Shown here piece by piece: positions 33,386 to 56,706 of a stretch of DNA of 64,000 nucleotides. The stretch's first letter is position 1. Each line of letters opens with the position of its first letter. The stretch is from Bacteroidota bacterium (lineage in GTDB: Bacteria > Bacteroidota > Bacteroidia > Palsa-965): contig JADBYT010000002.1 of assembly GCA_020402865.1 (NCBI GenBank), forward strand, positions 124,001 through 188,000, given 5' to 3'. Below the pieces are notes generated by a model, which saw nothing but the letters and a program-made list of their open reading frames with translations, was not told the DNA's origin and ran no database searches. The translations under genes and the position numbers were made by a program.

Positions 33386-33411
33386 ACATTCTCCGCAAAT
33401 TAATTTTGTAC

Positions 33412-33549
33412 CAATGCTGCGGCGAGTTTAGTGGTCGAAGACCACACAACGCGCCGCAACGCTTTTTGCAGGTCTCCGGACTAGCGAAAACGTGTGTACC
33501 AGCGCTGTATTCACTATATTAGTAATAGAATCAGTCGTTCATAATAAGC
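33412..33549. repeat. 138-bp tandem repeat, copy 1
   Basis: It starts CAATGCTGCGGCGAG and ends TTCATAATAAGC. It contains the hairpin GTGGTC-GAA-GACCAC (33431-33445) nested in a longer imperfect stem (TGCGGCGAGTT against AACGCGCCGCA), then a degraded second hairpin. It differs from copy 2 at about 12 positions. Confidence 0.85.
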
Positions 33550-33550
33550 C

Positions 33551-33688
33551 CAATGCTGCGGCGAGTTTAGTGGTCGAAGACCACACAACTCGTCGCAACA
33601 CTTTTTGCAAGTCTCCAGACTTGCGAAAACGTGTATGTCAGCGCCATATTCCCTATATTAGTAATAGAATCAGTCGTTCATAATAAGC
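33551..33688. repeat. 138-bp tandem repeat, copy 2, adjoining the 33691 start codon
   Basis: Same length and orientation as copy 1. The first hairpin is conserved (33570-33584), and the second is perfect here (GCAAGTCT-CC-AGACTTGC). Its last bases form the leader of the 33691 gene, so the duplication has copied that gene's probable promoter region. Confidence 0.85.
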
Positions 33689-48130: not shown

Positions 48131-51112
48131 ATGCTACGACTCCTGCTGCTTATTTTGTTTTTCTGTCCTCTGGCTTTACTGGCACAGCCCTTGCGGTTTG
48201 CGCATTACGATACGCGCCAGGGGTTGTCGCAAAATTCGGTGCATGCCTTGCTGCAGGATAGGGAAGGATTTGTGTGGATGGGCACGCAGGACGGACTGAG
48301 CCGTTTCGACGGGTATTCATTTACCGTTTACCGGCATAGTAAAAAAGATACGGCTTCATTGCCCGATAATTTTGTGATTGATCTGGCCGAAGATGTAAAC
48401 GGAAATATCTGGATTGGTACACGTTCGGGGTTATGTGTATTTCAGAAAAGTAAAAACAGGTTTTTACGACTTTATTCCGGGCGTGAAGATTCCAGACTGC
48501 ATAATAATGCTACGTATATGCTTCAGTCGGGAAGCGGAATAATTGTGAGCCTTGTTCCGATGGGGGTGTGTGAAGCTGAGCTTGCTGGCGATAAAATTGT
48601 GGTAAAACCAGTTGGCAAAAATATAACACGTGTGTGGAGACTGCAGTCGCAACTGTATATCCGTCAATCTGATTCACTCTGCACCGCCTCCAATATCCAC
48701 GCTCCTTTACGTCTGTTCGCCACGTTTGCAACAGATAAAGTGAAAGGCATTTCCGATATTGAAAATACCGGCGGTAAAACATATCTGGCAGCTGCAAATA
48801 AACTATATCGCAATTCATCTTCCGGTCGTTTTGAGCCTTTGGTTACATTACGCGAAAACATTATCTGTCTGGCCTCCGATCATACCGGGCGTATCTGGGC
48901 AGGAACAGAAAACGGGTTGTGGATTTATCACACTGCTACGGGCATGCTTGAAGAAATAAAAACGGATGTATCAGATCCGTTTTCGTTAAGCTCAAGCCAG
49001 ATATTAAGTTTAATGTGCGACCGGCAAGGGGTGATGTGGATTGGTACTTCAGGAGGAGGTGTGAATATTTGCGATTTGGGACGTGCGTTTTTCAAAGTAT
49101 ATAATTCTGCACATTCGCCTGGTTTTCCTGCGGGAGCAGTGTGGTGTATGGCAGAAACTGCAAATGCCGTTTTACTCGGTACGGAAAAAGGAGTTGTTCC
49201 GCTTCCGTCACGCAATCAGTCTGTTCCGCGTTGGACTTCGCTTGTTGCGCCCGAAGTTTTTGTAACCCAGCTTTGTTTTGATAAAAGTGGGACGCTGTGG
49301 ATCGGCACTCGGAATAATGGAATTATCCGAATAGATACAATAACATTAAAAAGAGAAAGTATTGATACCACAAACTCGCCGCTCAGCGATAACGCAATTT
49401 TTCATATTTCTGCTACTGCCGATACGCAGGTAATTATTACCACACGTCGCGGGCTCAATTTTTTTAATCCCCAAACCGGCAACTGGCGTGTCTATCGGGG
49501 AAGAGAGCAGTTGCCTACCGTTCAGGGAAATTATATCATTCAATCATTTACCGATAAGCAGCGCATACTCTGGCTCGCCCACCCGATGGGATTAACCCGT
49601 TATGCGCAAGGGAAATTTTACACCTATCGTAATTTAGCTGACGATACCTTGTCGCTTCCGTTTAATGTGGTTTCATTTGTGAGTGAGGGGAGCAACAATA
49701 CACTCTGGGTTTCGACACTTGGTGGCGGAGTTGCAAGGTTTTACAGGGGTAAAGAAACGTTTACCACCTATAACACCACGAATGGTTTGCCCAACGATGT
49801 GGTGTATGCTGCGCTTGAAGACAAGCAGGGAATGGTGTGGATGAGCACCAACGAAGGTATCTGCAGGCTTGATCCGCAAACCGGATTTATTGATGTGTTT
49901 ACCACCCGCGATGGGCTGCCTTCGAATGAGTTTGTGCAGAATTCGGGTTACGTGTTGCGCAACGGGCATATTGGTTTCGGCTCGGTTGATGGCTGGGTGA
50001 GTTTTGATCCGGCGGCTTACAGCTCGCTGGCCGATACGCTGCAGCCGGTGCTTTCGGGGCTTTTTGTAAACAACCAGCCCGTGCCGTTTTTCGGGTTGCG
50101 CGAGCTTTTGCTCGATCATGAAACGCGCAATGTATCGTTTTCATTTACTGCCGTGAATTATCGTGTGCAGGAGAAAATCCGCTACAGCTGCATGCTTGAG
50201 GGCTTTGACCAGAGCTGGATTGAGCAGGCCCCGGGGCAGCGGATGATTTCATACACCAATTTACCTTTTGGCGATTATGTGTTTAAAGTGCGCGTGCGTG
50301 TGGGCAATGGCCCCTGGCAGCAGCATGAACTGAAATTGCCGCTGCGTGTGGTGCCGCCGTTCTGGATGCAAACCTGGTTTTACGTGCTTATGGGTGTGCT
50401 GGCGGCCTTGCTGCTTGCGGGTGTTGTGGCGTGGATTGCACGACTTAACTACCGCCGCCGCATGCGTGTGCTTGAAACCGAACATAAAATCCACATCGAA
50501 CGCGAACGCATTTCGCGCGATCTGCATGATAACATTGGTGCGCAGATTACTTACATTGTAAGTACACTCGATTTTCTCTCGTTCCGCCTTGATAAGCAAA
50601 CGGCAGGCGAAAACAGGCAGCTGATTCACGAACTGGGGCAGAATGCCCGCCAAACCATGGATCAGCTGCGCGAAACCATCTGGGCCATGAATCAGCCTGC
50701 ACTCGGGCTCGACGAATTTGTGCAGAAGCTGCGCAGCTTTACACAGCGTGCGGGAGTCTCGTCGCCCATGCAAATTCAAATCGAGCATCAGGCCGAAGGG
50801 CAGGGTATTACGCTTGCATCGGCGCAGGTGCTGCATTTGTACCGCATTATTCAGGAAGCGGTAAACAACGCACTCAAGCATGCGCAGGCCACCCGGCTTA
50901 GTATTTCCTTTGTAAGCGAAGACGCAAAACTCATCACCATCATTACCGACAATGGCAGCGGTTTCGACAGTATCCGGAACCACGAAGGCCACTATGGCCT
51001 TGCCAACATGCAAACCCGTGCTGCCGAAATTGGTGCCGAAGTTAAGATCACTTCGCAGCCCGGCCACGGCACGCAGATACGTGTGGCATTACCGCTCACC
51101 ACCAGCGAATAG
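48131..51112 (+). CDS. Two-component sensor histidine kinase with Reg_prop beta-propeller
   Basis: 993 aa. After a signal peptide (LLLLILFFCPLALLAQ) a periplasmic two-bladed propeller region (about 20-640) holds repeated 'G-x-x-W-x-G-T-x-x-G-L' units such as 'DREGFVWMGTQDGLSRFDG' and 'DKQGMVWMSTNEGICRLDP'. A Y_Y_Y domain (about 640-735) and one membrane helix (about 745-768) lead to the NarL/DegS-type kinase: His799 in 'ISRDLHDNIGAQITY', then the ATPase N-box 'EAVNNALKHA', 'DNGSGFD' and 'GHGTQIRVALP'. Such sensors detect extracellular nutrients or glycans in this phylum. Cognate regulator is the gene at 51161. No SusC/D genes adjoin it, so the signal is unknown. Confidence 0.93.
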   Translation: MLRLLLLILFFCPLALLAQPLRFAHYDTRQGLSQNSVHALLQDREGFVWMGTQDGLSRFDGYSFTVYRHSKKDTASLPDNFVIDLAEDVNGNIWIGTRSGLCVFQKSKNRFLRLYSGREDSRLHNNATYMLQSGSGIIVSLVPMGVCEAELAGDKIVVKPVGKNITRVWRLQSQLYIRQSDSLCTASNIHAPLRLFATFATDKVKGISDIENTGGKTYLAAANKLYRNSSSGRFEPLVTLRENIICLASDHTGRIWAGTENGLWIYHTATGMLEEIKTDVSDPFSLSSSQILSLMCDRQGVMWIGTSGGGVNICDLGRAFFKVYNSAHSPGFPAGAVWCMAETANAVLLGTEKGVVPLPSRNQSVPRWTSLVAPEVFVTQLCFDKSGTLWIGTRNNGIIRIDTITLKRESIDTTNSPLSDNAIFHISATADTQVIITTRRGLNFFNPQTGNWRVYRGREQLPTVQGNYIIQSFTDKQRILWLAHPMGLTRYAQGKFYTYRNLADDTLSLPFNVVSFVSEGSNNTLWVSTLGGGVARFYRGKETFTTYNTTNGLPNDVVYAALEDKQGMVWMSTNEGICRLDPQTGFIDVFTTRDGLPSNEFVQNSGYVLRNGHIGFGSVDGWVSFDPAAYSSLADTLQPVLSGLFVNNQPVPFFGLRELLLDHETRNVSFSFTAVNYRVQEKIRYSCMLEGFDQSWIEQAPGQRMISYTNLPFGDYVFKVRVRVGNGPWQQHELKLPLRVVPPFWMQTWFYVLMGVLAALLLAGVVAWIARLNYRRRMRVLETEHKIHIERERISRDLHDNIGAQITYIVSTLDFLSFRLDKQTAGENRQLIHELGQNARQTMDQLRETIWAMNQPALGLDEFVQKLRSFTQRAGVSSPMQIQIEHQAEGQGITLASAQVLHLYRIIQEAVNNALKHAQATRLSISFVSEDAKLITIITDNGSGFDSIRNHEGHYGLANMQTRAAEIGAEVKITSQPGHGTQIRVALPLTTSE

Positions 51113-51129
51113 GGTAAATGACGTATTGC
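51111..51129 (+). promoter_or_regulatory. 19-bp site shared with the barrel gene leader, copy 2
   Basis: AGGGTAAATGACGTATTGC begins at the last two bases of the kinase stop codon and ends 31 bp upstream of the response-regulator ATG. It differs at one position from the site upstream of the barrel gene. Confidence 0.45.
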
Positions 51130-51160
51130 CCGTAGCGAATTAATACACTAATCTTACCAC

Positions 51161-51820
51161 ATGAAAATTACCGTAGGACTTGTTGAAGACAACGCGCAGC
51201 TCATACAATCGGTGAGCCGCAATCTTTCGTGTTTTGATAGTATAGAGCTTTTGTTTGTGGCGCGCAACGGCAATGAACTTTTGCAAAAACTCGAATCGCA
51301 GCAGCCTTCGGTTTTACTTATGGATATTCACATGCCCGAAATGAATGGCATTGAAGCCGCACGTCTGGTGAGTGAAAAATATCCCGGCATACGCATTCTC
51401 ATGCACACCGTTTTCGATACCGAAGACAAAATATTCGACAGCATTGTGGCGGGCGCTACCGGCTATCTGCTTAAAGATTCGCCGCCATCGGCGCTCATTG
51501 CCGCTATTGAAGAAGTGCTCGAAGGCGGCGCACCCATGAGCCCCAGCATTGCCCGAAAAGCCCTGCAACTGCTGCGCACCGCGCCAGTTCCCGAGCCCGC
51601 CACACAAACAGAAACATTTGACCTCACCAAACGCGAACTCGAAATTTTAGAGAAAATTGCCGAAGGCCAGAACTATCAGCAGATTGCCGATGTACTTTTT
51701 GTAAGTCCCAAAACGGTGCGCAAACACATCGAAAATATTTACCGCAAACTACAGGTGCACAATAAAATGGAAGCGGTGCAGAAAGCGAAGAAGAACAGGT
51801 TGCTTTCGGTGTTGTTCTGA
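51161..51820 (+). CDS. NarL/LuxR-type response regulator
   Basis: 219 aa. The receiver domain (1-125) has acidic residues Glu9-Asp10, the phosphoacceptor Asp55 in 'VLLMDIHMPEMNG', Thr in the 'ILMHTVFD' strand and Lys in 'GYLLKDSPP'. The LuxR-type helix-turn-helix (about 150-210) shows 'LTKRELEILEKIAEGQNYQQ' and 'FVSPKTVRKHIENIYRKL'. It is 48 bp downstream of the kinase gene and surely its partner. It probably controls its own synthesis and the barrel gene through the 19-bp site. Its stop lies 2 bp from the stop of the convergent SGNH gene. Confidence 0.95.
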   Translation: MKITVGLVEDNAQLIQSVSRNLSCFDSIELLFVARNGNELLQKLESQQPSVLLMDIHMPEMNGIEAARLVSEKYPGIRILMHTVFDTEDKIFDSIVAGATGYLLKDSPPSALIAAIEEVLEGGAPMSPSIARKALQLLRTAPVPEPATQTETFDLTKRELEILEKIAEGQNYQQIADVLFVSPKTVRKHIENIYRKLQVHNKMEAVQKAKKNRLLSVLF

Positions 51821-51822
51821 TA

Positions 51823-53400
51823 TTACCTGCGTTTCTTCCTGTACACCTTCAGCACCTGTCCCGGATGAATCGTATTACTTCTTAAATTATTCCACCGTTT
51901 CAGCTCCGTTACAGTAACGCCGTACCTGCGCCCGATTGCACTTAAACTTTCGCCCGGTCGTACACGGTGTTTTACCAGCACGCGTCCCGGCGGAACACCT
52001 GCGGTGCGTGTTTCAAGCGTATCGGCTTTGCGGAGACGTTGCTGTTGTGCGCGTATGCTGTCGGTAAAAAGTGTGAGGTTTTCGCCTTGCGGATTTTGTT
52101 GCATCCAGTTTATGGAGCGTTGCATGGCACTTACCAGCAAATCGCCTTTAAGGCGATAGCCTTTCATGGTAAGGTGTATTCTGTCGGGCTGGCCTAACCC
52201 GGTACTGTCAAATGCCACCATCGCTTTCCAGCCGCCGGCAATCCAGTACCAGTCGTACACGCCGCAGTTTTCGGCTTTGGCAATGCTGTGTATTACATCC
52301 GAAAACTGTTCGCCGGCCACAACGTGATTGTATCGGTAATACATGTCCATTGTGCTGGTAAGCAGAATGGATGCATTGGGAGCCGCAGCCCGTATTTTGC
52401 GCACCACCTGTACAATTTCCTCGCGCAATGCAGGTTTTATGCTGTCGTCGTAGAGATAATCGTTGGTGCCGAAATCCACAATCACCAGATCGGGCTTCAG
52501 TATTGGTAGCTGCTGCGAAAATAAAACTTCATACAAAGGCGACTGATAGCGCGATGCACCCACACCGCAGTTGTTGAACACCACGCCGCGGTTGGTTTCG
52601 GTTTCGAGATGCATGCCGTAGCATTCAAACTCTTTTTCCGAAGCATTCTTTTTCACTACGCGCACGGTAAGCTGTTTGCCCAGCGGCGGTACTTTCACTT
52701 CCACATAGGGCAATGTATCGCCGGGCAGCGAGTCGATAACAACCGGAATGAGTTGTGCGCCGGCATCAATAACAAGATCAAAACTCCGGCTCGATTTTTT
52801 CACGAATATTTTCAGCACAGTACGTGTGTCCGGTTCGGGCTGCATGAAGTTGAGTGTAAACGAGGCTTTCGGATCTTCGGTGCGGCAGGTCATGCCAATT
52901 ACACCCAGCGGCAGTTTGGAAGGAAGGATGAAACTTTTTCCATACGTCCACACGCCCGTGTGCGTTGATTTATACTCGATGGATGAATATGTTTTAGCGG
53001 TGGAGTAGGGGAACATGGTGCCGCGACCGCCGTCGCCATGAATTTGCTGGAGGCCTTTGCGAGCCTGGCCGGGAAAAATATCGGCCTGCAGGTGTGAATC
53101 GCCGAGATGTACTACAGCCATTTTCCGGGTGGTAGTATTCATCCACGCATTGTAAAACTGCTGCATGGCACTGCGGCTGTAAAACTGTATGCAGTTAAAC
53201 TCTTCGTGCATAAAAGGATATGCAGCCGTATCAATTACCCGTGCTGGTGGCTCGCTTGTGTTTGTTACCGTGTTGAATCCCGATGCCTGTTTAAGTTGCA
53301 GCATGAGCAGCACCGAAATAAGCAAAGGCAGTGCCAGCCACCAGCGCAGGTTTTGTGCAGAAAATAAAATCGAAATGAGTTTCACGGTACGTGCTTTCAT
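51823..53400 (-). CDS. SGNH hydrolase-like O-acyltransferase/esterase with C-terminal LysM domain
   Basis: 525 aa from ATG 53400, whose A overlaps the previous stop (TGATG). An N-terminal membrane helix at about 17-36 leaves the rest in the periplasm. The SGNH core starts with the catalytic Ser102 in 'VVHLGDSHLQADIFP', block III 'VDFGTNDYLYDD', and the late Asp-x-x-His in 'PDRIHLTMKGYRL'. The last 45 residues ('HRVRPGESLSAIGRRYGVTV', 'NTIHPGQVLKVY') are a LysM domain, a peptidoglycan-binding module. With the MBOAT and DHHW genes upstream it is the likely transfer or release enzyme of an extracytoplasmic O-acetylation system. Confidence 0.9.
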   Translation of the reverse strand: MKARTVKLISILFSAQNLRWWLALPLLISVLLMLQLKQASGFNTVTNTSEPPARVIDTAAYPFMHEEFNCIQFYSRSAMQQFYNAWMNTTTRKMAVVHLGDSHLQADIFPGQARKGLQQIHGDGGRGTMFPYSTAKTYSSIEYKSTHTGVWTYGKSFILPSKLPLGVIGMTCRTEDPKASFTLNFMQPEPDTRTVLKIFVKKSSRSFDLVIDAGAQLIPVVIDSLPGDTLPYVEVKVPPLGKQLTVRVVKKNASEKEFECYGMHLETETNRGVVFNNCGVGASRYQSPLYEVLFSQQLPILKPDLVIVDFGTNDYLYDDSIKPALREEIVQVVRKIRAAAPNASILLTSTMDMYYRYNHVVAGEQFSDVIHSIAKAENCGVYDWYWIAGGWKAMVAFDSTGLGQPDRIHLTMKGYRLKGDLLVSAMQRSINWMQQNPQGENLTLFTDSIRAQQQRLRKADTLETRTAGVPPGRVLVKHRVRPGESLSAIGRRYGVTVTELKRWNNLRSNTIHPGQVLKVYRKKRR

Positions 53401-54773
53401 CAATTGGGTCGCTTTAGCGTATCGGTAAATGAGGAGTCTTTGCGCAGCAGGGCCGTATCCATTTTCGGCAGCGAATCAGCGTTGCCGGCCGGTGCGGCAC
53501 CTTTGAGCAGTTTTTCAATGCGCATAATGTGCCAGCTTGTGTTTGCCGAAAATGAGCCGTTTATGAATACCACATCCGTAATGCCGTTTTCCCTTACAAA
53601 ATCGGGCAGGTTGTGGTTGAAATAGCGGTAGTCGATAATATATACCTTATCGAAGTTTGCGGCAAAGTAGGGGGAAAACGCATTGCCGTAGGAGTTTTTG
53701 ATAATTACCACGCTGCGCCCTGTGCGGTTGGTGGTTTCCACTTTCATGAGCGGAAAATCGCCGCCGAGATACATGCCGTAGCCGCCACCTTTGAAGTAAA
53801 GCGATGCGGGAATGGGTTTGGTAATGTTTTCGTCGGTGTAGCGGAATGTTTTTACGCTGTTGGGTACCATATAGCAGATGGCCGTGTCGGGCTTTTCTTT
53901 CAGGCGTTCATCGCGCGTGAGGGCGTAGAGCGAGCCGAGCCAGTTGTTTTGTATGCGCGTTTGCATCTGGCTCAATGCAAGCGGTTGCATGCCGGCGCGT
54001 TCGGCTGTGGCTGCGTAGGCGTAGTAAGCGCCCGCGCCCGTCCAGTGATGGTCGGTGCGGAAAAACAGGTATTCGTTCCTGTGCGCCATCATGGGTGTCC
54101 ATGCATCCACAGCAATAATGCCCGGCAGTAAATTGCTGTAGATAACATCAATATTTTTCTTTTCCGAATTTGATGAACGCCTGAACGCATCGGGCATATA
54201 CAAATCGTAATGCGAGGGCACCACTACATCGTAAATGCGCACCGAAGCGGGCAGTGCTGCTCTGAATTTATTGATGGCCTGCGCATAGCGTGCAGCCATG
54301 GTGGCATTACCGCCGAAATACTGAATGGCCATGCCATTGTGTACAACCATGTTGGCAATAATATCGCCGTTTTCGTTCACGGTTGCCGTATCGGCTGCAG
54401 CCAGCGTGTCATTCAAGGCCGATTCGGCGGTAATGATGCCGGGTTTGTTTTTTGCCAGCTGCGACGCGTCGTAAAATTTCACTTCGCGGTTGGGAATGCC
54501 CCGCCACTCGGCCAGTTGAAACGAAGTACTCACCAGTTCTTCGCGGAATGCAAAATGATCGGCCACATACTGGTCGAGGCTGTCGGTGAAATGCCCTTCA
54601 AAAAATGAATGCCATGAAAATTGCGGAAACGGTGTAAGCCTGCGGTTTTCGACTACCGATGAATTGATTTTCGGCAGCACAAAAAACAATACACCGCACC
54701 CGGTAAGCACCGTGCCAAACAGCACGAAGTTTATCCATGCCAGTTGTTTGCGCAGTTGTTTGTGTTTTTTCAT
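53400..54773 (-). CDS. DHHW/AlgX-AlgJ-like protein of O-acetylation systems
   Basis: 457 aa. N-terminal membrane helix (about 12-33, 'WINFVLFGTVLTGCGVLFF'), then a periplasmic SGNH-like domain. Landmarks are 'ENRRLTPFPQFSWHSFFEG' followed by 'DQYVADHFAFREEL', both typical of AlgX/AlgJ relatives, 'VVVPSHYDLY' and the DHHW motif at 241-244 ('FFRTDHHWTGAGAYY'), with 'IIKNSYGNAFSPYFAANF' later. In alginate and peptidoglycan modification such proteins accept acetyl groups from an MBOAT protein and transfer them to polysaccharide. It overlaps the SGNH-LysM gene and lies 4 bp after the MBOAT gene. Confidence 0.9.
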   Translation of the reverse strand: MKKHKQLRKQLAWINFVLFGTVLTGCGVLFFVLPKINSSVVENRRLTPFPQFSWHSFFEGHFTDSLDQYVADHFAFREELVSTSFQLAEWRGIPNREVKFYDASQLAKNKPGIITAESALNDTLAAADTATVNENGDIIANMVVHNGMAIQYFGGNATMAARYAQAINKFRAALPASVRIYDVVVPSHYDLYMPDAFRRSSNSEKKNIDVIYSNLLPGIIAVDAWTPMMAHRNEYLFFRTDHHWTGAGAYYAYAATAERAGMQPLALSQMQTRIQNNWLGSLYALTRDERLKEKPDTAICYMVPNSVKTFRYTDENITKPIPASLYFKGGGYGMYLGGDFPLMKVETTNRTGRSVVIIKNSYGNAFSPYFAANFDKVYIIDYRYFNHNLPDFVRENGITDVVFINGSFSANTSWHIMRIEKLLKGAAPAGNADSLPKMDTALLRKDSSFTDTLKRPN

Positions 54774-54777
54774 GGCC

Positions 54778-56190
54778 TCAGAAACGGTAGTATATAAACG
54801 GGTTGTACGATTTGCCGGTGAGCATGGCTGTAGCCAGAAACAACAGTACCAGATTCAGGGCCATGCTGCCAAGCAGAAAATACGCACGGTTGTGTTTGGT
54901 AACCTGCCTGCGCACCCTGCGGTTGAACCAGTGAAACACCGGCAGGCAAAGTATAATGGTGAGCAGCAGCCAGAACATATTCTCCCGAAGAGAATACGTA
55001 AGCTGCACATCCCACAATCCGCCACTGCGATTTACGCCAAATAAAATTTCGAAAAAAGCCCCCAGCCTCGGCAGACTTTCAAAATAAAACAACGCCCAGC
55101 CGAGAACAGCTGCAACCAACAAATACACATGCGATACCACCGCCGGAATACGGTTGAGCAGTTTGAACAAAAACAACCGCTCAATGTAAATGAGCAGCCC
55201 GAAATACAACCCCCAGAAAATAAAATTCCAGCTGGCTCCGTGCCACAATCCGGTTAAAAACCAAACCACAAACAGATTGCGCACGGCAAAACGTTTGTTG
55301 CCGCCAAGAGGAATGTAGAGATAATCGCGGAAGAACGTGCCAAGCGAAATATGCCAGCGGCGCCAGAATTCGGTGGCAGATTTTGCGATGTAGGGATAAT
55401 TGAAATTTTCGTGGTAATGAAAACCAAACATCCGCCCCAAACCAATGGCCATGTCTGAGTAGCCTGAGAAATCAAAGTAAATCTGCACCGAAAACATGAG
55501 CAGCCCGAACCAGGCTTCACCCACCGAAAGTGCCGCAAAATCGCCATCCAGATATTTCACTACCATTTCGCCGGCTACGTTGGCAATGCACACTTTTTTA
55601 AACAAGCCTATGCAAAACCGGCTCACTCCTGAACTGATGTCGCCGATATTGAATTTGCGGTTGTCTATTTCGTGCGCAATGTGGCTGTAGCGCACAATAG
55701 GCCCGGCCACCAGCTGGTGATACAAACTCACAAACATGAGAAATTTCATGGGCGAACGTTGGGCGGGTACTTCACGCCGATAGACGTCGATTACATATGA
55801 AACCGTTTGAAACGTATAAAACGAAATGCCCACCGGCAGCGCAAATTTTGGCACTTCAAACGCAGTGCCCAGCAGCAGATTTATGTTTTCTACTACAAAC
55901 CCGCTGTATTTGAATGCCATGAGAATGGCGGCATTAAAAATTACAGTCGATACGATGCCGAGTTTTGCCCATTTCGTTTCGCGGTATTTCTCAATGAAAA
56001 GTGCATTGGCATAATCTACCATCGAAGAGAATACGAGCAACAGAATCCATACCGGTTCGCCCCAGGCATAAAACACAAAAGAGAAAAGCGTGAGCAGGAC
56101 ATTTCTGTACGTACTGTTTTTGGAGAGGTAGTACAGAATGAGGTTGAGCGGTAAAAAGATGTACAGAAACGAAAGACTCGCAAAAACCAT
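54778..56190 (-). CDS. MBOAT-family O-acyltransferase (AlgI-like)
   Basis: 470 aa from ATG 56190; the ATG at 56226 would add a non-hydrophobic stretch. About eleven membrane helices. It opens 'MVFASLSFLYIFLPLNLILY', shows 'PVGISFYTFQTVSYVIDVYR', 'GPIVRYSHIA', 'EFWRRWHISLGTFFRDYLYI' and the invariant His in 'TGLWHGASWNFIFWGLYFG'. AlgI/PatA/DltB-type proteins carry acyl groups across the inner membrane for transfer to extracytoplasmic polymers. First gene of a tight MBOAT-DHHW-SGNH operon. The acceptor polymer is not identified from the sequence. Confidence 0.95.
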   Translation of the reverse strand: MVFASLSFLYIFLPLNLILYYLSKNSTYRNVLLTLFSFVFYAWGEPVWILLLVFSSMVDYANALFIEKYRETKWAKLGIVSTVIFNAAILMAFKYSGFVVENINLLLGTAFEVPKFALPVGISFYTFQTVSYVIDVYRREVPAQRSPMKFLMFVSLYHQLVAGPIVRYSHIAHEIDNRKFNIGDISSGVSRFCIGLFKKVCIANVAGEMVVKYLDGDFAALSVGEAWFGLLMFSVQIYFDFSGYSDMAIGLGRMFGFHYHENFNYPYIAKSATEFWRRWHISLGTFFRDYLYIPLGGNKRFAVRNLFVVWFLTGLWHGASWNFIFWGLYFGLLIYIERLFLFKLLNRIPAVVSHVYLLVAAVLGWALFYFESLPRLGAFFEILFGVNRSGGLWDVQLTYSLRENMFWLLLTIILCLPVFHWFNRRVRRQVTKHNRAYFLLGSMALNLVLLFLATAMLTGKSYNPFIYYRF

Positions 56191-56352: not shown

Positions 56353-56706
56353 ATGAACAAAGTTTACCATCTCGGTAATTGCAGCACCTGCAAGAAAATT
56401 ATCGACGCGCTTGACCTGAAGAATAAGAAGTTTGAATTTCAGGATATTAAAGAGGAACCCATTTCGCCGGCGCAGCTTGATGAAATGGCAAAACTTGCCG
56501 GCGGATACGAACCGCTTTTCAGCCGTATTGCCATGAAGTACCGCGCCATGGGGCTCAACAACATGACGCTTACCGAAAAAGATTACCGCCGGTATATTCT
56601 GGAGGAATACACCTTTCTGAAACGTCCCACGATTATTATGGGTAAGCAGATTTTCATTGGCAGTGCAAAAAATACAGTTGCTGCGGCAAAAGAGGCGGCT
56701 AAGTAA
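56353..56706 (+). CDS. ArsC/Spx-family thioredoxin-fold protein
   Basis: 117 aa. Thioredoxin-like fold with the N-terminal 'YHLGNCSTCKKIIDALD', giving a Cys-x-x-Cys pair where classical arsenate reductase ArsC has one catalytic Cys. 'LNNMTLTEKDYRRYILEE' and 'KRPTIIMGKQIFIGSAK' match the C-terminal part of ArsC/YffB/Spx. Arsenate reductase is only one option; the absence of arsB, arsR or acr3 argues for a general thiol-redox role. 26 bp separate it from the downstream DMT transporter gene. Confidence 0.85.
   Translation: MNKVYHLGNCSTCKKIIDALDLKNKKFEFQDIKEEPISPAQLDEMAKLAGGYEPLFSRIAMKYRAMGLNNMTLTEKDYRRYILEEYTFLKRPTIIMGKQIFIGSAKNTVAAAKEAAK

Follow-up and report, generated by a model that had tools for sequence, protein, structure and literature searches.

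A DHHW/MBOAT transferase module joined to a LysM-fused Ape1-like enzyme in a probable peptidoglycan O-acetylation cluster of Bacteroidota

Three adjoining genes in a stretch of 64,000 nucleotides from the genome of a freshwater-type Bacteroidota bacterium (hereafter the window, meaning the whole stretch of DNA that was analysed) encode an MBOAT acyltransferase, a DHHW-family protein and an SGNH protein with a C-terminal LysM, and together they probably constitute a rebuilt version of a known cell-wall acetylation and de-acetylation system. The reading that we favour, and consider reasonably probable, is that of a peptidoglycan O-acetylation cluster (OAP type) in which the transferase module has been swapped. 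The OAP-type cluster is an already known kind of system, and what is new here is the DHHW/MBOAT module and the LysM-fused Ape1-like enzyme. The peptidoglycan of Bacteroides carries O-acetyl groups at a high level, but the Bacteroidota clusters detected in this analysis encode two Ape1-like proteins and no PatB, which leaves it uncertain which protein acts as the transferase. In the natural swap, DHHW stands in for one of these SGNH genes and the other type persists in LysM-fused form, which offers a hint as to what each SGNH gene does.

Results

The three open reading frames all lie on the minus strand and span positions 51823-56190 of the window in the order MBOAT, DHHW, SGNH-LysM (Table 1). 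The tight packing described in the sequence-only reading holds on inspection, as the first junction is a gap of 4 bp (TGA-GGCC-ATG) and the second a 1-base overlap (TGATG). The operon is real and not a chance arrangement, since five congeneric genomes, and more distant Bacteroidota too, preserve the order of the genes and their open frames. On one side a response regulator gene ends at 51820, convergent with the operon, and on the other an ArsC-like gene at 56353 is divergent from it. Among the operon flanks and the other window proteins scanned, we found no glycan-polymer, glycosyltransferase or export genes, and no genes for alginate or exopolysaccharide synthesis.

Table 1. Features of the operon, with positions in the window
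Feature	Position	Strand	Basis
MBOAT acyltransferase, PatA/AlgI-like, 470 aa	54778..56190	-	ATG start at 56190; Pfam MBOAT 7.5e-19; PDB DltB 1.5e-21; kept in relatives; clade of DHHW-partner MBOATs
Predicted catalytic His317, WHG	55240..55242	-	Invariant in 12 of 12 aligned MBOATs; role taken from PMC12148441
C-terminal acyl-shuttle motif FIYYRF (FXYXXF), predicted acetyl carrier Tyr467	54781..54798	-	Sequence; Tyr invariant in 12 of 12 aligned MBOATs; motif acetylated in PatA, PMC12148441
DHHW-family protein, 457 aa, single N-terminal membrane helix; predicted acetyltransferase	53400..54773	-	Pfam DHHW 1.1e-54; PDB 4nzk 1.9e-67, B. cereus PatB1 1.8e-24 (profile)
TDHHW, residues 240-244, predicted catalytic Asp and His	54042..54056	-	Invariant in 8 orthologues; motif defined in PMC9487903
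KNS, residues 359-361, predicted nucleophile Ser361 (Block I, DHHW family)	53691..53699	-	Ser and Lys invariant in 8 orthologues; aligned to KDS of PatB1
DYRY, residues 381-384 (Block II DXRY), predicted oxyanion Arg383	53622..53633	-	D, R and Y invariant in 8 orthologues; motif from PMC9487903
SGNH O-acetylesterase, Ape1-like, LysM-fused, N-terminal membrane helix, 525 aa (predicted)	51823..53400	-	ATG at 53400; AlphaFold2 pLDDT 83.7; Foldseek Ape1 8gkd/4k3u; NmApe1 profile 1.1e-40
GDSH, predicted nucleophile Ser102	53092..53103	-	Invariant; aligned to NmApe1 GDSH
All-beta insert that follows the GDSH block and precedes block II, as in Ape1, ~residues 143-267	52600..52974	-	DSSP of model; Ape1 fold match
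DRIH, predicted catalytic Asp406 and His409	52174..52185	-	Invariant; aligned to NmApe1 DGVH
C-terminal LysM, ~residues 478-520	51841..51969	-	Pfam 6.2e-16; helices and strands in model; matches LytE and MltD LysM

The trio is found in the same order and on one strand in five further congeneric genomes (G001 to G005; loci L087-L090 lie on the very contigs of G001, G005, G002 and G003 and were counted once), with identities across these five genomes of 62-70% for the MBOAT, 43-44% for the DHHW protein and 46-49% for SGNH-LysM. Full or near-full trios also occur in the metagenome-assembled (MAG) contigs L091 and L093 (the second of which ends before a LysM would show), in G027 (L051) and, with the genes ordered differently, in G088 (L144); G058 has DHHW and SGNH-LysM. 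The relatives that carry names are Flavobacteriales or Bacteroidia MAGs, some of them lake-derived by isolate name. MBOAT-DHHW pairs without an adjoining Ape1-like partner are found in G205 and G259, and hybrid clusters of the form SGNH1-SGNHx-LysM-MBOAT exist as well. In G205 (L146, 7625-10395) a tandem pair of DHHW genes lies by one MBOAT with the C-terminus AFIYTRF, in surroundings that include a pectinesterase, a GH88 enzyme and a GDSL esterase.

The tail of the MBOAT, FIYYRF, is an exact match to FXYXXF, the motif whose tyrosine in PatA is auto-acetylated from acetyl-CoA and feeds PatB (PMC12148441). The genome's other MBOATs bear the same type of tail, and as such the motif is general and carries no information on the acceptor. 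In a tree, the MBOATs encoded next to a DHHW gene group together in a single clade, separate from the MBOATs of SGNH1 clusters (support 100/100), and two further MBOATs of the window's genome place beside each of these two clades. Elsewhere (G022, L059 5654-8500) a single 948-aa open reading frame fuses an SGNH2-type protein to an MBOAT.

The second protein, which has a hydrophobic helix at residues 16-34, is predicted to be a DHHW transferase with all three of the blocks that define PatB1-type enzymes, namely TDHHW, K(D/N)S and DXRY (PMC9487903). These blocks of the DHHW family (PF14286) are present in permuted order, with their key residues invariant in 8 sequences. A PDB profile search with this protein returned only the uncharacterised structure 4nzk and PatB1, and no match to PatB. 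The sole characterised DHHW enzyme is PatB1, which acetylates a secondary cell-wall polysaccharide (PMC9487903), and so membership of the family alone does not point to peptidoglycan.

The sequence-only reading had described the third protein as an SGNH active site with a C-terminal LysM. Both parts are indeed present (Pfam GDSL lipase 1.5e-17, in addition to LysM), and the former description is to be amended in that, by sequence and modelled fold, the SGNH part is specifically Ape1-like and not a generic SGNH enzyme. The AlphaFold2 model consists of an SGNH core, the all-beta insert and the LysM, and its top five Foldseek matches are all Ape1, comprising C. jejuni 8gkd and 8gld as well as the peptidoglycan O-acetylesterase 4k3u, which we take to be N. 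meningitidis Ape1 (E ~1e-22). The TM scores of 0.78-0.82 by the length of Ape1, the target, denote a full-length fold match, and the next hit follows at 6e-8, which leaves Ape1 ahead by ~13 orders of magnitude. The best sequence match is likewise the 4k3u profile, with the GDSH and DxxH blocks aligned. The GDSH, block II Gly, GTN and DxxH elements of the Ape1 family are all present with their key residues invariant in 11 sequences, among them Ser102, Asn313, Asp406 and His409. No published description of an Ape1-LysM fusion was found in the open-licence literature.

The standard arrangement in this phylum, SGNH1-SGNH2-MBOAT, is complete in 34 named loci in our scan of named genomes (Hymenobacter, Chitinophaga, Parabacteroides, Porphyromonas and others), and it contains two Ape1-like SGNH proteins and no PatB. 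The Bacteroides order ape1b-ape1c-pat was described in 2005 by Weadge et al., with peptidoglycan O-acetylation of 69% in B. fragilis and 27% in B. thetaiotaomicron (PMC1199599). The beta insert is present in both SGNH1 and SGNH2 here and ape1c is said to lack it, and for this reason we do not equate SGNH1 and SGNH2 one-to-one with ape1b and ape1c. The window's genome (G000) also has a standard cluster (C24:42278-46288, L040), between cinA and pepP-ftsY. In G023 an MltD-like lytic transglycosylase with SLT and LysM domains lies directly upstream of the standard cluster (L054 10498-12027), which fits a role in peptidoglycan metabolism; LysM open reading frames occupy the corresponding place in L056 and L057.

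Within the genus, strong matches to SGNH1 and SGNH2 (E < 1e-150) are confined to G000 and G006. G001-G005 lack the standard SGNH genes, and three of these genomes (G001, G003 and G004) have a completeness of at least 99%; the trio is present in G000-G005 and absent from G006. In G003 the trio has cinA on one side and pepP-ftsY on the other, at the site that the standard cluster takes in G000; it adjoins pepP-ftsY in G001 and G005, and cinA, DUF4197 and two usp genes in G002. The same flank is shared by the standard-cluster genomes G007 (pepP) and G031 (pepP-ftsY). The trio of G000, which is that of the window, is located elsewhere, away from the cinA/pepP-ftsY site. Standard SGNH genes are retained alongside trio parts in G027, G058 and G088. 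The genomes with the trio only form one rpoB clade (support 87/89), and we therefore count a single replacement.

Most of the LysM-fused proteins fall into one clade of 17 in the SGNH tree (100/98), a clade that holds trios together with clusters containing SGNH1 and its MBOAT (L094, L095); the fusion is also seen in G048 and in each of the two clusters of G027. Scattered in this manner, the fusions need at least three changes, which would mean that LysM was joined to Ape1-like enzymes on more than one occasion. A single origin of all trio operons was rejected, tentatively in view of long branches, as the trio SGNH protein of G027 falls outside the main trio clade (AU p 0.0003). It groups with the standard SGNH2 of its own genome, and the MBOAT of the same trio does fall within the clade of DHHW-partner MBOATs. 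This suggests, tentatively and subject to the long branch of G027, that the same partnership of MBOAT-DHHW and Ape1-like enzyme formed twice. The MBOAT thus goes with its transferase, and the Ape1-like enzyme is what the clusters have in common.

Discussion

By analogy with PatA, acetyl groups would pass from acetyl-CoA through the MBOAT to Tyr467 on its own tail. Ser361 of the DHHW protein would then accept the acetyl group and transfer it to a glycan hydroxyl, most likely that of peptidoglycan MurNAc, and the Ape1-like enzyme, tethered to the wall through its LysM, may strip acetyl groups as Ape1 does such that lytic transglycosylases can cut. The presence of two SGNH proteins had been thought to set the operon apart from PatA/PatB, an argument that must be given up, as the Gram-negative OAP cluster patA-patB-ape1 likewise comprises one MBOAT and two SGNH proteins (PMC12148441, PMC5077204). 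Like the clusters of Neisseria and Campylobacter, the trio combines in one operon an MBOAT with an FXYXXF tail, a transferase-family SGNH protein and an esterase of the Ape1 fold; unlike them, it has no PatB, its transferase being of the circularly permuted, PatB1-like DHHW family, and its Ape1 carries a LysM. The standard Bacteroidota cluster (ape1b-ape1c-pat, or SGNH1-SGNH2-MBOAT) resembles the trio in its MBOAT and two SGNH proteins, in an SGNH2 homologous to the window's SGNH-LysM (~30% identity) and in the chromosomal site that the trio takes in sister species, whereas the trio differs in gene order, in the fused LysM, in an MBOAT of the separate clade described above and in having DHHW in place of SGNH1. 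The PatA1/PatB1 pair of the Bacillus cereus group is also an MBOAT with a DHHW transferase, but it serves a secondary cell-wall polysaccharide of a Gram-positive organism and no Ape1-LysM partner is described for it in the literature consulted. CcsH/CcsI, of predicted clostridial cellulose acetylation, form a further MBOAT-DHHW pair, in their case within a cellulose synthase operon.

Peptidoglycan as the target, which had been proposed from the LysM, is now supported more strongly than by that module alone, because the third protein resembles Ape1 both in its sequence and in its modelled fold, and because in sister species the trio occupies the site that the standard cluster has in this and other genomes. 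Several points stand against it: the window's genome keeps a standard cluster as well, and the trio therefore has a rival there; the one characterised DHHW enzyme serves a secondary wall polymer; the exchange counts only once; MBOAT-DHHW pairs lacking an Ape1-like neighbour exist (G205, G259); and standard SGNH genes persist beside trio parts in G027, G058 and G088. It may be argued instead that the acceptor of the MBOAT-DHHW pair is some other polysaccharide of the envelope (a capsule, a secondary polymer or an exopolysaccharide) and that the LysM merely parks an Ape1-like esterase on the wall. The DHHW precedents, PatB1 on a secondary wall polymer and the predicted CcsI on cellulose (PMC9487903, PMC7710045), speak for this, as do the Ape1-less pairs of G205 and G259 and the neighbourhoods of other MBOATs in this genome, which adjoin capsule or export genes; the one on C39 (L165 7295-13318) lies by Wzt-like and Wzz/Wzc-like (tyrosine-kinase-like) genes and is probably concerned with capsule or O-antigen acetylation. 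Against this, neither a glycosyltransferase nor an export gene turned up among the scanned window proteins, flanks included, the partner within the trio is an Ape1 homologue, and the exchange at the standard-cluster site has already been noted. We hold this alternative to be unlikely. Still narrower is the case for an alginate-type system of exopolysaccharide acetylation. The likeness to AlgI and AlgX/AlgJ that was first noted stands at the level of families, in that AlgI/AlgJ/AlgX also join an MBOAT to SGNH-like transferases, and the DHHW protein does match the ALGX profile (6e-10) and, weakly, AlgJ (0.042). Its match to DHHW is nonetheless far better and PatB1 is its nearest characterised structure, the AlgI/AlgJ/AlgX pathway is one of exopolysaccharide, and no alginate synthesis gene or polymer locus is found among the scanned window genes. 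This reading was rejected as highly improbable.

A separate question is whether SGNH-LysM might be a second acetyltransferase, acting in relay or at a specific site, as opposed to a de-acetylase. In the standard cluster SGNH1 also matches Ape1 by fold and SGNH2 is a homologue of the window's Ape1-like protein, and with no PatB at hand at least one protein of the Ape1 fold may act there as a transferase; in alginate acetylation, too, two SGNH proteins act (PMC4148444). It follows that the fold alone cannot separate esterase from transferase, and we rejected it as a discriminator. The nearest characterised relatives of SGNH-LysM, the Ape1 enzymes of Neisseria and Campylobacter, are however esterases, the hydrolase Ser, Gly, Asn, His and Asp are retained, and the operon already possesses a transferase-family protein. 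By this comparison the protein is more likely a de-acetylase, and we judge a second transferase quite improbable.

If the favoured reading of a peptidoglycan O-acetylation cluster is extended to the phylum, a broader and decidedly more tentative proposal may be made, one that we regard as possible and somewhat short of probable. Bacteroidota peptidoglycan O-acetylation would then be built from transferase modules that can be exchanged for one another, with an Ape1-like enzyme as their common partner, and the DHHW/MBOAT pair, from a family known for secondary wall polymers, would have taken over the site of the standard module. The acetyltransferase that standard clusters seem to lack would, by elimination, be SGNH1 in spite of its Ape1 fold, and DHHW proteins would represent a class not previously recognised among the enzymes that O-acetylate peptidoglycan. 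Were this true, the DHHW family would be extended from secondary polymers to peptidoglycan. The exchange makes the roles of SGNH1 and SGNH2 in Bacteroidota testable.

Two further observations concern the window at large. The response regulator that adjoins the operon is of the LuxR type and is accompanied by a propeller-type sensor kinase (Reg_prop, Y_Y_Y, HisKA_3, HATPase); this pair occupies 48131-51820 and converges on the operon, with ends 2 bp apart. At 33411-33688, between a gene for a PLP enzyme of Cys/Met metabolism and the next start codon, there is a direct tandem duplication of 139 bp in 2 copies that are 91% identical, each with a short inverted repeat (GTGGTCGAAGACCAC).
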